Below, one piece after another: positions 27,655 to 33,426 of a stretch of DNA of 64,000 nucleotides. This DNA comes from Halodesulfurarchaeum sp. HSR-GB (lineage in GTDB: Archaea > Halobacteriota > Halobacteria > Halobacteriales > Halobacteriaceae). Positions within the stretch are counted from its first letter, which is position 1, and each line of letters opens with the position of its first letter. The position numbers were made by a program, and so were the translations under genes. Where the stretch lies: NCBI RefSeq assembly GCF_031432215.1, contig NZ_JAVKGN010000001.1, positions 558,001 to 622,000 on the forward strand. The letters are read 5' to 3'. Below the pieces are notes generated by a model that was not told the origin of the DNA, did not search any database, and saw nothing but the letters and a program-made list of their open reading frames with translations.

Positions 27655-28908
27655 TCAGTTCCCGGCGGCGTCCAGCACGGCTTCGACGTCGTTCGGGACC
27701 GTCGTTGGGTCGTTTCCGGCGTCGGCTGCGGCGTCCGGGTCCTTGAGGAGGTGGCCGGTCGTCAGACAGACGACCTGCTCGTCGGCCGTGATCTCCCCCG
27801 CTTCCCGGAGTTTCCGCAGACCGGCCACCGAGGCCGCGCTGGCGGGTTCGACGCCGATCCCGTCCTGGGCCAACTCGCGCTGGGCCGCCGTGATCTCCTC
27901 GTCCTCGACTGCGACCGCGGTGCCGCCGGTCTGCCGGATGGCGGGGATGGCCTTCGGCGCGTTGACCGGTTCGCCGATCCGGATGGCCGTCGCGCGGGTC
28001 TCGACGTCCTCCCAGCGGGTAACCGAATCCCAGTCGTTCTCGATGGCCTCGACCATCGGAGCCGCGCCGGCGGCCTGCACGCCGGTGAGAACCGGCACTT
28101 CGTCTTCCTCGATCGCACCGGCCGCGACGAGTTCCCGGAAGGCCTTGTGGAGCGCAGCGGTGTTCCCGGCGTTCCCCACTGGGAGCACGATCCGGTCGGG
28201 GAGCGAGCCAGTCTGGTCCCGGAACTGCTCGATGATCTCCAGGCCGATCGTCTTCTGGCCCTCCAGCCGGAAGGGATTCAGCGAGTTGAGCAGGTACACC
28301 TCCCCCCGGTCGGCCAGCTCCGAGACGATGTCCAGACAGTCATCGAAGTTGCCCTCGACTTCGAGCATCGTCGCGCCGTGCAGGCTCGCCTGGGCGAGTT
28401 TGCCGGCCGCGACTTTGCCCTCGGGGAGCAAGACCAGGGTTTCCTTGTTCGCTCTGGCCCCGTAGGCCGAGAGCGCAGCGCTGGTGTTCCCGGTGCTGGC
28501 ACACGCCAGTCGCCCGACACCGATTCGCTCGGCGACTTTGACCCCCACCGTCATCCCACGGTCTTTGAAACTCCCGGTAGGGTTCATGCCTTCGTGTTTG
28601 ATCCGGAGGTCGGCCACGTCCACCGCGGCCTCGATTGAGGGGGCCTCGTAGAGCGGCGTGTTGCCCTCCTCGATTGTCACACCGTCGTCCACGGGCAGCG
28701 CGGGGGCGTATCGCCAGACGCCCTCGCCGGTAAAGGAATCGAAGTCGTGGTACTCGTCGTACCGGACTTCCAAAAGCGAGCCACAGGCGTCACACTCGTA
28801 GGTCGGTTCCTCGAAGGGCGCGTAGGTCTCCCCACACTCGATACACGCGAGCCAGACGCCGTCCTCGGCGACCTCGGGGACGGGGCCCGAAAGTGAAAGG
28901 TCTGTCAT
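27655..28908 (-). CDS. thrC: Threonine synthase
   Basis: 417 residues, PLP-dependent enzyme converting O-phosphohomoserine to threonine. An N-terminal zinc-ribbon-like segment (CIECGETYAPFEEPTYECDACG) is followed by EEGNTPLYEAPSI and the PLP lysine in GMNPTGSFKDRGM (about 105-117). ACASTGNTSAALSAYGAR is the phosphate-binding loop. The glycine-rich LPVGNAGNTAA lies further on. Length is normal. It starts 45 bp from the end of argX on the same strand, with no obvious promoter in between, so read-through from lysW-argX is possible. Confidence 0.95.
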   Translation of the reverse strand: MTDLSLSGPVPEVAEDGVWLACIECGETYAPFEEPTYECDACGSLLEVRYDEYHDFDSFTGEGVWRYAPALPVDDGVTIEEGNTPLYEAPSIEAAVDVADLRIKHEGMNPTGSFKDRGMTVGVKVAERIGVGRLACASTGNTSAALSAYGARANKETLVLLPEGKVAAGKLAQASLHGATMLEVEGNFDDCLDIVSELADRGEVYLLNSLNPFRLEGQKTIGLEIIEQFRDQTGSLPDRIVLPVGNAGNTAALHKAFRELVAAGAIEEDEVPVLTGVQAAGAAPMVEAIENDWDSVTRWEDVETRATAIRIGEPVNAPKAIPAIRQTGGTAVAVEDEEITAAQRELAQDGIGVEPASAASVAGLRKLREAGEITADEQVVCLTTGHLLKDPDAAADAGNDPTTVPNDVEAVLDAAGN

Positions 28909-28953: not shown

Positions 28954-29829
28954 CTAGACGGTGGCCGCGACGTCGTTCTCGCTTTTCGCGGCCTTCTCCT
29001 CCAGCCAGTCGACGACCTCGGCGACGATGTCCGTCTCGACCGCGTCGGCCAGGGCCTTGTACTCGACGGTGTGGTTGATCTCGTGGATCGTGTAGCCGTC
29101 CTCGGTCTCCATGAGGTCGACGCCGAGGAGGCCGCCGCCGACCGCGTCGCTGGCCCGCCGGACCAGGTCCTCGATCTCGGGGGTGATCTCCAGGACCTCG
29201 GTCTCGGCCCCGCGATGGGCGTTCGTGATCCAGTGATCGGCCGACCGGACCATCCCGGCGACCGGCTTGCCGTCCAGGGCGAGCACGCGGAGGTCACGGC
29301 CCGGCTTGTCGACGAACTCCTGGATGTAGAAGATCTTGTGCTCGTAGTGGCCCAGGGTCTCCTTGTGTTCGAGGATCGCCTCGGCGGCGTGTTCGTCCTC
29401 GATGCGGGCCATCAGCCGGCCCCAGGACCCCACGACGGGCTTGAGCACGACCGGGTAGCCAAAGTCCTCGATGGCCTCCAGGGCGGCCTCCCGCGTGAAC
29501 GCGACCCGGGTGTCCGGGGTCGGAATCCCGGCCTCCTCCAGGGCGAGACTGGTCTTGACCTTGTCCGAACAGGTGCTGGCCACGTCCGGCGGGTTCACGA
29601 TCGGGACGCCGTAGGACTCGAAAAACTCCGTGACGTACATCGACCGGCTGGTGGCGACACACCGGTCGACGACGATGTCGAGTTCCGCGGCGTCGACACT
29701 CGACCCGGAGAGGCCGAACTGCTGGTCCCGGACGTCGATCTTGACCACGTCGTGGCCGCGCTCGCGGAGCTCCTCCAGCAGGAGCTTCTCGTCCGTGCGG
29801 ATCCGCGAGTAGAGGAGGCCGACTTTCAC
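28954..29829 (-). CDS. argX: LysW-dependent ATP-grasp ligase (ArgX/LysX type)
   Basis: About 291 residues from a GTG three bases after the lysW stop. ATP-grasp enzyme that couples glutamate (or alpha-aminoadipate) to the C-terminal glutamate of LysW, protecting the amino group during arginine (or lysine) synthesis. N-terminus KVGLLYSRIRTDEKLL is typical; ATP-grasp motifs include PVVLKPVVGSWGRL, IFYIQEFVDKPGRDLR and GVDLMETEDGYTIHEINHTVEY. Because lysW is directly upstream and argGH are the next genes, arginine is the likely product, but the sequence does not prove substrate choice. Confidence 0.88.
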   Translation of the reverse strand: MKVGLLYSRIRTDEKLLLEELRERGHDVVKIDVRDQQFGLSGSSVDAAELDIVVDRCVATSRSMYVTEFFESYGVPIVNPPDVASTCSDKVKTSLALEEAGIPTPDTRVAFTREAALEAIEDFGYPVVLKPVVGSWGRLMARIEDEHAAEAILEHKETLGHYEHKIFYIQEFVDKPGRDLRVLALDGKPVAGMVRSADHWITNAHRGAETEVLEITPEIEDLVRRASDAVGGGLLGVDLMETEDGYTIHEINHTVEYKALADAVETDIVAEVVDWLEEKAAKSENDVAATV

Positions 29830-29831
29830 GT

Positions 29832-29996
29832 TTACTCCCCCCAGTCCTCGTCGAGCTCCGGGGCCCGTTCGAGAACCGGCGGGTTCTCCTCGACTACTTC
29901 GAGTTCGGTCCCGCAGGTCGAACAATCGACGATCTCTCCGACTTCGATCGAGTCGTGCAGGGTCACCTCGGCCCCGCATTCCGGGCAGACTGTCAT
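29832..29996 (-). CDS. lysW: Amino-group carrier protein LysW
   Basis: 54 residues, ending in EDWGE, the conserved C-terminus whose last glutamate is joined to the biosynthetic substrate. A zinc ribbon is formed by CPECG (residues 4-8) and CSTCG (about 26-30). The remainder is strongly acidic, giving a carrier surface recognised by the downstream enzymes. A CTTAAGG box lies 27-33 nt upstream of the ATG, so lysW-argX appears to have its own promoter separate from argGH. Very short but unambiguous. Confidence 0.93.
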   Translation of the reverse strand: MTVCPECGAEVTLHDSIEVGEIVDCSTCGTELEVVEENPPVLERAPELDEDWGE

Positions 29997-30022: not shown

Positions 30023-30029
30023 CCTTAAG
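30023..30029 (-). promoter_or_regulatory. TATA-like box of lysW-argX
   Basis: Minus-strand CTTAAGG, 27-33 nt before the lysW ATG; spacing fits a leaderless transcript. A second AT-rich stretch (30045-30060) lies further upstream in the 189-bp gap after argH and may be an alternative promoter or part of the argH terminator. Confidence 0.55.
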
Positions 30030-30185
30030 CGTTCCGAACTTATCAACAATAATATACTATCTGCAGCCGCCGCTACGCACGCAAACGCCACCGTCGAACC
30101 GGAACTGCGATCCGGAGTATCGTATATTTGAAATGATGGGTGGGTGAACGGGTGGGTCACACCCGTCGACCAGGTGCTCGCACGT

Positions 30186-31676
30186 TCATCGGAAATCGAC
30201 CTCCATGCGTGCCTGTTCGGCGGCGTCGATGGCCGCCTGGCGTTTCGTCACGGCCCGCCGGTCGGCCTCGACGCCCGACCGGGCGTCCGCGAGTGCCTGT
30301 TCGACCTGTGATGGCGCGGGCCCGCCGCGGGAATCCCTGGCCGCAACACTCTCAGCGGGATCGAGTAGCGCCGTGAGTTCCTCGCGATCGACGAACTCCT
30401 CGAGTGGTGACCCGGTCGTCGCTTCGGTGGCCGCCGCGAGCGCCTCGATGGTGGCCGCGTCGTCCGGGGCTCCGTCGTCGATTTCGCCCGCCGATTCGAG
30501 TGTCTGGGCGGTCGTCGCGACGATTTCGTGGGCCGTGCGGAACGGGAGCCCGCTCATCGCCAGCCGATCGGCGATCCCCGTGGCCGTCGAGAACCCCTCG
30601 CCGGCCGCCTGTTCGAGGACCGCCTCGTTCCAGTCCAGGGTGCCAACCGCTCCGGCCGCGACTTCGGTCGCCTCCGTGACGGCCGCCACCGGCTCCCAGA
30701 CGTGGGGTGTGGCCCGCTGGAGGTCGCGGTTGTACGCCCGCGGGAGGCCGGCGATGGTCGTCATGAGCCCCTGCAGGGCCCCGGCGGCGTCCCCGGCGGT
30801 CGCCCGGACCAGCTCCAGGGAGTCGGGGTTTTTCTTCTGGGGCATGATCGAGGAGGTCGAGGCGTAATCGTCGTCCAGGGTGATGTACCCACGATTCGCG
30901 TAGAAGATCAGGTCCTCTGCGAGCCCCGAGAGGGTCACCGTGAGCCCGGCGATCGCGCTCAGGGCCTCCAGGAGGAAGTCCCGGCCGGCGACCGCATCGA
31001 GGCTGTTCTCAACGATCGAATCGAAGCCCAGGAGTTCGGCGGTCCGTTCCCGGTCCACGTCGAAGGGGGTCCCGGCCAGCGCCGCCGCACCCAGCGGCGA
31101 GCGGTTGGTCCGGTCGTAGGCATCGAGCAACCGTTCGGTGTCCCGGGCGGCCGCGCTCTCGTAGGAGGCCAGGTAGTGAGCGACCGTCGTCGGCTGGGCC
31201 GGCTGAAGGTGGGTGTACCCCGGCATGACGGTGTCCAGGTTGTCCCCGGCGACCGAGAGAAGCGTCTCGCGAAAGGCGATGACGGCATCGAGGGTCTCCA
31301 GCAGGTCGGCCCGGAGCTGAAAGCGCAGACAGCTCGCGACCTCGTCGTTGCGCGAGCGCCCGGTGTGCATCTTGCCGCCCTCGGGCCCGACGCGGTCGAT
31401 AACCGCAGTTTCGATGGCCTCGTGAACGTCCTCGCCATCGGGCAGCGCCTCGTGACCGGCCGCCTCGATCTCGTCGAGCGCGTCGAAGATCTCCCCGGCT
31501 GTTTCCTCGGGGATGATCCCCTGTTCGGCCAGCATGGTCACGTGGGCGCGGTCCACGGCCAGGTCGGCCGCGAAGATGTGGGCGTCTGCGGCCATCGAGG
31601 AGAGGAAGTCCCGGGCGGGCCCGCCGCTGTAGCGATCGCGGCGGACGACCGAACTGTCCGCGGTGTCCTCTGTCAT
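30186..31676 (-). CDS. argH: Argininosuccinate lyase
   Basis: About 496 residues, fumarase/ASL superfamily, last step of arginine synthesis. Visible features are DRYSGGPARDFLSSM at the N-terminus, HTGRSRNDEV (about 113-122), the TTVAHYL strand with the catalytic-region histidine, and the signature GSSIMPQKKNPD-like SSIMPQKKNPDSLE (about 275-288) with the catalytic serine loop. The ATG lies one base after the argG stop, so the two form an operon. The C-terminal ~100 residues are rich in Ala/Asp, as usual in halophiles. Confidence 0.94.
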   Translation of the reverse strand: MTEDTADSSVVRRDRYSGGPARDFLSSMAADAHIFAADLAVDRAHVTMLAEQGIIPEETAGEIFDALDEIEAAGHEALPDGEDVHEAIETAVIDRVGPEGGKMHTGRSRNDEVASCLRFQLRADLLETLDAVIAFRETLLSVAGDNLDTVMPGYTHLQPAQPTTVAHYLASYESAAARDTERLLDAYDRTNRSPLGAAALAGTPFDVDRERTAELLGFDSIVENSLDAVAGRDFLLEALSAIAGLTVTLSGLAEDLIFYANRGYITLDDDYASTSSIMPQKKNPDSLELVRATAGDAAGALQGLMTTIAGLPRAYNRDLQRATPHVWEPVAAVTEATEVAAGAVGTLDWNEAVLEQAAGEGFSTATGIADRLAMSGLPFRTAHEIVATTAQTLESAGEIDDGAPDDAATIEALAAATEATTGSPLEEFVDREELTALLDPAESVAARDSRGGPAPSQVEQALADARSGVEADRRAVTKRQAAIDAAEQARMEVDFR

Positions 31677-31677
31677 C

Positions 31678-32907
31678 TCAGGTGTCGGTCTCGATGTCGG
31701 CCGCGAAGTCCGAGACGTCCGTCGAGGCCTGGATCGTGGCCGCGAGGCGGTCCTGGAAGCCGTGGTACTTCGCGAAGCCGGTCGCGTCGCCCTGCTCGAT
31801 GTCGCCCATGACGGCCTGGGTGTTGAACGAGGCGGCGGCCTCGGAGTAGACCGCGTTGTCGCTCTCGCGGGCGACCGGGCGGGCCTGGCCGCCCTCGAAC
31901 TTGATCGTGACCGTGCCGGTGACCTCGGTCTGGGTGTCCTCGATGAACGCCTCCAGACTATCGACGAGCGGCGAGGCCAGCAGACCCTTGTAGGCCTTCT
32001 CGGCCCACGCGTCGTCGACGGTCTGCTTGAACTGGATCGTCTCGGCGGTGAAGACATACGACTCCAGGGCTTCGTGAGCGGCGAGTAACGTCGTCGCGGC
32101 GGGGTGCTCGTAGTTCTCCCGAACCTTTAGCCCGAGGATGCGGTCTTCCATCATGTCGGTCCGGCCGACGCCGTGGGCTCCGGCGACCTCGTTGAGCGTC
32201 GTGATGAGTTCGACCGGGTCCATCGCCTCGCCGTCGAGTGCGACTGGGACGCCCTGCTCGAACTCGATCTCGATCAGTTCGGTCTCGCCGGTCGGCTCCT
32301 CGGTCCACGCGTAGATGTCCTCGGGTGGGACATAGCCCGGGTCCTCCAGGTTGCCGCCCTCGATCGAGCGGCTCCAGAGGTTCGTGTCGATCGACCAGGT
32401 GCCGTCGTTGCCGCTGTCGACGGGCAGGCCCTTCTCCTCGGCGTACTCGATCTCCCACTCGCGGGTCAGGTCGAGTTCGCGGACGGGGGCGACCACGTCC
32501 ATGTCGGACTGGCGCCAGACGGCCTCGAAGCGGAGCTGGTCGTTGCCCTTGCCGGTGCAGCCGTGTGCGAGGCCCTCGGCCCCGATGTCCTCGGCGACCG
32601 CCTGGATCGTGGCGGCGATGACCGGGCGGGCCAGGGCCGTGCCCAGGGGATAGCCCTCGTAGGTGGCGTTTGCCTTGACGGCGTCCATGAGGAGGTCGCC
32701 GAAGGCCTCGGTGGCGTCGACGACGTAGTGCTCGACGTCGAGGGCCTCGGCGGTGGCTTTGGCCTCCTCGAACTCGGCTTCGGGCTGGCCGACGTCGACG
32801 GTGACGCCGACGACTTCGTCGTAGCCGTACTCTTCTTGCAGCAGCGGGACGGTGACGGTCGTGTCGAGCCCGCCCGAGAAGGCGAGCACGACGGTGTTCT
32901 GTGTCAT
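31678..32907 (-). CDS. argG: Argininosuccinate synthase
   Basis: 409 residues. It joins citrulline and aspartate using ATP. The P-loop is LAFSGGLDTTV (about 8-18), with AHGCTGKGNDQLRFE (about 115-129) and the SxxNLWSRS region DTNLWSRSIEGG. I start at MTQNTVV, the family start. The ATG follows an unusually long leader: a TATA-like TTCAAAT at 33131-33137 is ~225 nt upstream, with a short arginine-rich ORF, a hairpin, a palindrome and a CA-rich stretch between. First gene of argGH. Confidence 0.95.
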   Translation of the reverse strand: MTQNTVVLAFSGGLDTTVTVPLLQEEYGYDEVVGVTVDVGQPEAEFEEAKATAEALDVEHYVVDATEAFGDLLMDAVKANATYEGYPLGTALARPVIAATIQAVAEDIGAEGLAHGCTGKGNDQLRFEAVWRQSDMDVVAPVRELDLTREWEIEYAEEKGLPVDSGNDGTWSIDTNLWSRSIEGGNLEDPGYVPPEDIYAWTEEPTGETELIEIEFEQGVPVALDGEAMDPVELITTLNEVAGAHGVGRTDMMEDRILGLKVRENYEHPAATTLLAAHEALESYVFTAETIQFKQTVDDAWAEKAYKGLLASPLVDSLEAFIEDTQTEVTGTVTIKFEGGQARPVARESDNAVYSEAAASFNTQAVMGDIEQGDATGFAKYHGFQDRLAATIQASTDVSDFAADIETDT

Positions 32908-33014
32908 TGTGATGGTGGTGTGGTGTGGTGTGGTTCGACGATCACTGATCGACGGACGGTCCCCCGACAACTCGCGGGTGGCGACAGATCAGGACGGTGT
33001 GGATGATTCTGGGG

Positions 33015-33104
33015 TCAGCGAGACCCCGCTCGTCGTCGCGAGACGGAAAGAAGGGACCCCCGGGTACGGGCCTGCGAGCGACGCCGTGCGTGCGGGGGGT
33101 GCAT
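33015..33104 (-). CDS. Arginine-rich short ORF, candidate argG leader peptide
   Basis: 29 codons beginning MHPPHARRR, with ten arginines including a run of three CGA codons near the end. The ATG lies 27-33 nt from a TATA-like box, the position of a leaderless start. The stop codon lies inside a perfect 6-bp hairpin with a five-base loop. Caution: off-frame reading in GC-rich DNA yields arginine often, so composition alone proves little. Translation is not shown. Confidence 0.35.
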   Translation of the reverse strand: MHPPHARRRSQARTRGSLLSVSRRRAGSR

Positions 33105-33130
33105 CGTATGTCTCCATATCGAGTCGGGCT

Positions 33131-33137
33131 ATTTGAA
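33131..33137 (-). promoter_or_regulatory. TATA-like box upstream of argGH leader
   Basis: Minus-strand TTCAAAT followed by AGCCC; predicted start of transcription falls at about 33104, the ATG of the arginine-rich ORF. Best promoter candidate in the argG upstream region. Confidence 0.5.
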
Positions 33138-33211: not shown

Positions 33212-33403
33212 ATGAATCAGTCCGGTCTCGACGCGATGACGGTCCTCAAGGTGCTGTTGGCGGTGGCCGCGATCGTCGTGGGATTCGTGATCCTGGGGGC
33301 GTTCGTTCGGATTCTCGGCCGGTTGATCTGGTTCTCGGTTGGAGTGCTGGTGCTGGCTGTCCTGGCGTTGCTCGCGCTCCGACTGCTCCGGGACCTCCTG
33401 TAG
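33212..33403 (+). CDS. Small two-helix membrane protein
   Basis: 63 residues with two closely spaced hydrophobic helices (VLLAVAAIVVGFVILGAFV and LIWFSVGVLVLAVLALLALRLL) separated by a short RILGR turn, and a basic C-terminus. A good TATA box supports its expression. Haloarchaeal relatives are conserved hypotheticals (DUF7554-like by my recollection). It precedes the RNA ligase-like gene by 23 bp and may be cotranscribed. Function unknown. Confidence 0.7.
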   Translation: MNQSGLDAMTVLKVLLAVAAIVVGFVILGAFVRILGRLIWFSVGVLVLAVLALLALRLLRDLL

Positions 33404-33426
33404 GCCGGCGAATTTTTACTCGACCC

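Follow-up and report, generated by a model that had tools for sequence, protein, structure and literature searches.

Does the short, arginine-rich open reading frame (ORF) that precedes argG in Halodesulfurarchaeum sp. HSR-GB act as a leader peptide in the control of arginine synthesis, or is it one more product of GC-rich DNA read out of frame? The former had been raised as a hypothesis in a sequence-only reading of the window, by which we mean the whole stretch of 64,000 nucleotides analysed here. According to a 2014 survey of an archaeal transcriptome, regulation by attenuators or riboswitches in vivo had no direct experimental backing in Archaea (PMC4247193). Our own literature search retrieved no report of an archaeal leader-peptide attenuator, with the proviso that its coverage was incomplete (all supplements and the majority of subscription journals fell beyond it) and that novelty is thus not proven. 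The comparisons described below reveal, by sequence criteria, an arginine leader ORF that is conserved across most of an archaeal class and that, in its two copies, is very probably an attenuator. A class-wide, easily recognised leader in genetically tractable organisms makes archaeal amino-acid attenuation directly testable, and it also opens archaeal transcription-translation coupling to direct test. Natrinema gari J7-2, for example, can be edited with an established genome-editing system (PMC10433800), and the leader is present in other Natrinema species among the relatives.

All the elements of the unit are on the minus strand. The putative leader promoter, P1, is marked by the TATA-like box TTCAAATA (33130..33137), found where it had been noted ahead of the ORF (33137-33130) and starting 33 nt upstream of the ATG (33104); because of this distance, the P1 transcript is predicted to begin at or very near the ATG, i.e., to be leaderless. 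The ORF itself, ORF1 (33015..33104), encodes in 29 codons the putative leader peptide MHPPHARRRSQARTRGSLLSVSRRRAGSR, and it contains the expected CGA-CGA-CGA run (Arg23-25; 33030..33038), the proposed arginine-sensing codons, while the ten arginines originally attributed to the peptide are in fact nine. The run is part of a segment, A (33026..33045), complementary to a downstream segment, D (32958..32978), its partner in a predicted closed structure. A perfect hairpin, HP1 (GGGGTC-TCGCT-GACCCC; 33011..33027), does hold the stop codon of ORF1, as had been read from the letters, with the TGA (33017-33015) straddling the loop and the 3' arm. From HP1 the gap to the argG ATG (32907) is about 103 nt, the last part of which is a CA-rich run, also correctly noted before, that has no Shine-Dalgarno-like sequence and leads into the start codon (32905..32933). 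A 13-nt palindrome, CGATCAGTGATCG (32951-32939), is present as described, but it is not retained in the third member of the window's genus and for that reason is probably incidental; we rejected it as a key element. The first gene after ORF1 is argG (31678..32907), encoding argininosuccinate synthase, 57-100% identical to the argG products of relatives, and it is followed by argH (30186..31685; the start is estimated, and the listed ORF is longer), which, from its product sequence, we take to encode argininosuccinate lyase.

As to whether this layout is maintained, about 140 argG upstream regions were gathered, nearly all from Halobacteria, and two comparisons were made. When ORFs were picked by TATA spacing and an ATG only, the stop codon was found to carry a GC-rich hairpin (5 bp or more) in 63 of the 84 leaders of non-redundant relatives, versus 4.6% of shuffled sequences. 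When the hairpin was located first and the ATG was then assigned by TATA spacing, 81 non-redundant leaders resulted, none of which has a stop in the ATG frame earlier than HP1. The in-frame stop is within HP1 in 67 of them and beyond it in the other 14 (no more than 3 nt after it in 10, further on in four), compared to 65 earlier stops in frame +1 and to only 0 and 4 stops landing in HP1 in frames +1 and +2, respectively. The distance from the start of the TATA-like box to the ATG is 28-34 nt in these 81 relatives, with a mode of 31, a spacing of 28-35 having been a selection criterion. The hairpin arms co-vary between clades (GGGGTC/GACCCC, GGGCC/GGCCC, GGCCC/GGGCC, CGGGC/GCCCG), differing in sequence while retaining complementarity, and, as these hairpins were found by complementarity, the comparison with shuffles rather than the list of arms is the real test. 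The codon phase of HP1 varies as well, and its loops range from 3 to 9 nt, yet the in-frame stop tracks the hairpin, in leaders of 21 to 76 codons whose tails stay arginine-rich throughout. Conservation of the ORF and of its arginine codons in relatives had been suggested as a check on the leader hypothesis, and the ORF, the start-TATA spacing, the arginine run and the stop within a hairpin are indeed shared by the majority of families in the class, in support of leader-peptide control.

The arginine codons themselves present a second line of evidence. The last 10 codons contain 4.33 arginines on average versus 1.60 in shuffles (84 non-redundant leaders), and arginine accounts for 50% of the final codons in the ORF frame versus 20% and 10% in the other two frames, which answers the earlier caution that off-frame GC-rich DNA might be the source of these arginines. 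CGA makes up 236 of the 364 arginine codons in the tails (65%), while its share of arginine codons is 9.4% in nine genes of the window (0 of 12 in argG) and 17% by rough whole-chromosome gene calls, and three in-frame CGA codons in a row occur just twice in the approximately 568,000 codons of the roughly predicted genes of this chromosome. The number of arginines per tail ranges from 2 to 11 and their spacing is variable, one leader (L099) carrying 11 in succession. The peptide body has a pN/pS of 0.99 between close relatives (56 pairs, not independent), a value that by itself is also compatible with non-coding DNA, the case for coding being made by the frame, the stop position and the arginine codons. 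Selection has kept the start spacing, the open frame, the arginine run and the hairpin, with the body drifting freely, and because of this drift it seems to be the act of translating ORF1, rather than its product, that matters. As far as sequence comparison goes, such a codon pattern is the mark of a leader in which the codons are what counts, and we consider it likely, with some confidence, that ORF1 serves as the leader peptide in an arginine attenuator acting through the position of the ribosome.

Of the alternatives, the one that fares best, although we regard it as doubtful, is arrest by the nascent peptide, in which the arginine-rich tail (RRRPG or PRRRA, followed by the stop) would itself stall the ribosome, either when arginine is abundant, as with the fungal arginine attenuator peptide, or constitutively, owing to its positive charge and proline, and the stalled ribosome would shut down argG. 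The tail does recur, as R-R-(R)-P/A-G/A-x-stop, and a hairpin just past the decoding site could reinforce a stall. However, the P-G/A portion is encoded by the hairpin arm itself, the arginines vary in number (2 to 11) and in spacing, the peptide body drifts, and the predominance of the rare CGA codons is a better fit to sensing at the level of codons.

Less probable still is the possibility that structure alone is at work, i.e., that HP1 and its flanks constitute an RNA or DNA element (a protein-binding site, a processing signal or a pause/termination signal), with the ORF a by-product of a conserved CGACGACGA-hairpin sequence. The strong conservation of the DNA motif itself would agree with this, as would the pN/pS of about 1 and the second promoter-like box found near argG in several clades (below). 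What is difficult to reconcile with it is that the frame set by the TATA-spaced ATG stays open over 21-76 otherwise unconserved codons, without one early stop in the 81 leaders, while frame +1 is usually closed, and that wherever the hairpin shifts relative to the codons, the in-frame stop follows. That ORF1 encodes a small arginine-rich protein acting in trans is very improbable: the promoter-ORF unit is conserved, but the peptide is not conserved beyond its tail, varies between 21 and 76 residues, shows a pN/pS of about 1 and is always positioned before argG in the genomes read. A functionless ORF arising by chance, for which the richness of off-frame haloarchaeal DNA in arginine codons might have spoken, is refuted by the class-wide conservation of frame, stop and hairpin, far above shuffles and other frames.

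The attenuator reading also gains from a second copy. In some relatives, weak covariance-model matches were noted 1.6 kb downstream of argG, and these led to another arginine-rich mini-leader, ORF2 (MNVRAPGRRV; 30157..30189, minus strand), at the junction of argH and lysW, recurring in other Halobacteria. Its ATG overlaps the argH stop (ATGA in the window; TATGTCTGA and GTGTCTGA in relatives), and its TGA is in the loop of a hairpin, ACGGGTG-TGACC-CACCCGT (30148..30166). Mini-ORFs of this type begin on the argH stop codon, encode arginines and then enter a hairpin, typically CCCC-N4-GGGG, other examples being MSEPRADPPSPPRRRARLRRSPPGDVHI (L035) and LPERRRPPRGA (L051, with a TTG start), and ORF2 appears to be entered via coupling from the argH stop. 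While the evidence comes from fewer sequences than for ORF1, a CCCC-N3-5-GGGG hairpin is present in 17 of 25 non-redundant argH-lysW junctions versus 0.2 expected, and arginine accounts for 43% of the codons preceding it in frame versus 21% and 3% in the other frames (20 scored cases); the pattern is missing at some junctions (L044, L049 and L050). Downstream are a TATA-like box, GCTTAAGG (30023..30030), probably a separate lysW promoter, with the same box in relatives, the gene for a lysW-type carrier protein (MTVCPECGAEVTLHD...DEDWGE; 29832..29996), and argX, which starts at 29829 (28954-29829), all on the minus strand; a threonine-synthase-like gene is found behind these two (27655-28908). 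In a number of junctions (L033, L035-L043, L051 and others), an AT-rich conserved sequence (AACATATGAAATCAGACAT, CAGAATTATGATAC) that resembles an operator or a binding site follows the ORF2 hairpin and precedes the lysW promoter.

How might such a leader operate? We infer that P1 is transcribed and ORF1 translated, the mRNA beginning at or beside the start codon so that ribosomes would load straight onto its 5' end and would meet the run of rare CGA codons a few nucleotides ahead of HP1, which contains the stop. With ample Arg-tRNA, a ribosome would pass the run, terminate within HP1 and depart, after which the RNA would close (HP1, plus the A:D helix in the window's family), resulting in low argG expression. 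With arginine scarce, and taking the simplest sign of the response, the ribosome would instead pause on the CGA codons, its footprint lying over segment A and the 5' arm of HP1, the closed structure would be blocked, and argGH would be expressed. A ribosome covers approximately 12 nt past the codon being read (a bacterial figure; PMC4833913), and thus one positioned on any of the three CGA codons would cover A (33045-33026) together with the 5' arm of HP1, wholly or in part. ORF2 would be the second such device, placed before lysW-argX and entered by ribosomes finishing argH. The output step could be factor-dependent termination, argG translation or the stability of the mRNA. Intrinsic termination is unlikely in the window because there is no U-run between HP1 and argG (33010-32908, minus strand), the longest T-run being 2.

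The A:D duplex would contribute to this scheme in one family. In the window its energy is -29.4 kcal/mol (z = -3.5), and in the window's family the mean z is -2.4, with p of 0.05 or less in 17 of 25 cases and with own A:D pairs stronger than cross pairs formed with the D segments of relatives (p = 0.0006). The three other large families that were tested lack the pairing, and it is weak in L004, a member of the window's own genus. A universal A:D mechanism was therefore rejected, leaving the arginine run and the stop hairpin as the only part shared by the class. An extra hairpin in the 5' half of ORF1 is visible in many leaders, but in most families it exceeds shuffles only mildly (mean z between about -1 and -1.5; one family reaches -2.9, and the window itself has +0.3) and was dropped as a general part. 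It is strong in L011, L081 and L103 (z from -2 to -3.7) and weaker elsewhere, and in some clades it may be part of the switch.

A further variable is the number of promoters. No promoter-like box is found near the argG ATG in the window's family, while in several other families a second TATA-like box is positioned about 28 nt before argG. In L037, L066 and L119, for example, this is a second conserved AT-rich block, TATA-like GAATTTAAG, with a conserved element, GGTTAGCGnnCGCTCT or CTATAGGCATCTCT, ahead of it, probably a second promoter and possibly a regulated one. This suggests a second, leaderless argG transcript in many clades, in which case the leader would act on the upstream transcript only and could govern only part of argG expression.

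As proposed, the haloarchaeal leader operates in the manner of bacterial leader-peptide attenuation, and it differs from each of the known systems compared here. The attenuators of the trpL/hisL type have a run of cognate codons in a translated leader on which the ribosome stalls when the amino acid runs short, mutually exclusive hairpins, one of them blocked by that ribosome, and an intrinsic terminator with a U-run before the first structural gene. A cognate run closely preceding the stop, a hairpin enclosing that stop and the cognate operon downstream are found here too, the arginine run preceding argG in most of the class, as is, in one family, predicted alternative pairing of the codon segment. 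In contrast, the alternative pairing is not general, the start is predicted to be leaderless, a second copy resides inside the gene cluster, and no U-run terminator separates the leader from argG, for which reason we rejected assignment to the trpL type. In the fungal arginine attenuator peptide (the CPA1/arg-2 uORF), it is a conserved sequence that acts, stalling the ribosome at high arginine; that uORF is also ahead of an arginine-synthesis gene, but here the peptide body is unconserved (pN/pS 0.99) and the arginine codons are conserved, and with no conserved peptide this membership was rejected as well. We know of no bacterial amino-acid attenuator with a leaderless start, nor of one with a second copy coupled to the argH stop. 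The closest resemblance is to Salmonella orf34-speF, in which pausing of translation at two arginine codons alters the folding of the leader RNA without an intrinsic terminator; that leader is bacterial and Shine-Dalgarno-led, its target is ornithine decarboxylase, and Rho and RNase G take part in its action (PMC6386406). Both have a short upstream ORF with consecutive arginine codons and lack an intrinsic terminator in the leader, and arginine sensing by pausing, a property of the Salmonella system, is what we propose here; the haloarchaeal leader differs in being archaeal, predicted leaderless, located before arginine biosynthesis genes, with its stop inside the hairpin and an unrelated peptide. 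The conserved core peptide of the speF/orf34 family (DUF2618), found upstream of ornithine decarboxylase, is HIRRTxHIMM (PMC6386406); by inspection, the haloarchaeal peptides lack this core, and the downstream gene is argG, so they do not belong to that family. Bacterial leader ORFs overlapping palindromes have been proposed to serve reinitiation, at 10-11 bp from the gene and with an effect not tied to one amino acid (PMC4833913). These share with our leaders the palindrome over the stop and, for ORF2, the apparent entry by coupling from the argH stop, but differ in the 10-11 bp distance and in having no amino-acid specificity. Taken as a whole, our proposal is one of leader-peptide attenuation in Halobacteria, in which a leaderless ORF with a run of rare CGA codons is read against a stop-codon hairpin. 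Its two copies (one at argG, the other at lysW-argX and coupled to the argH stop) would control arginine synthesis with no intrinsic terminator involved and through an output step that is probably archaea-specific. This proposal seems to us probable, if a shade less so than the assignment of ORF1 itself.

A covariance model built on the arginine run, the hairpin and the flank recovers the argG-upstream site in almost all complete Halobacteria genomes, where it mostly ranks as the best match, and in 120 genomes from the phylum it gave no match at E<=0.01 outside Halobacteria. Secondary matches are mostly weak and probably due to chance (that in L265, for example, is within a long coding frame). 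The element is absent at argG loci of methanogens and other non-haloarchaeal species (L054-L060 and L062) and upstream of argG in three deep or divergent lineages (L123, L141 and L142), and the latter absence may date the origin of the leader within the class. Searches of the window region and four relatives against the covariance models of Rfam 15 produced no match at the gathering score, including riboswitch, T-box and leader models, and a plasmid collection gave no match. In the 1.97-Mb main chromosome, to which scanning was confined, no other short ORF with a leaderless start was seen to pair a cognate run with a GC hairpin over its stop, and by these criteria the leader is therefore specific to arginine. 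The argC-argB-argD-argE genes are located apart from the argG cluster (G000 C1, about 1931577-1935581), and argC is preceded by a 17-codon ORF, MRTDIPRIATATVGGTV (about 1935580-1935632, minus strand), that is not arginine-rich and whose stop overlaps the argC start (ATGA).

A small divergent ORF of about 63 amino acids, hydrophobic, is encoded on the plus strand at 33213-33404 (MNQSGLDAMTVLKVLLAVAAIVVGF...), preceded by a TATA-like TTTTTAAGG, and a similar sequence is present in both genus-mates, one of them being the Halodesulfurarchaeum of locus L032.
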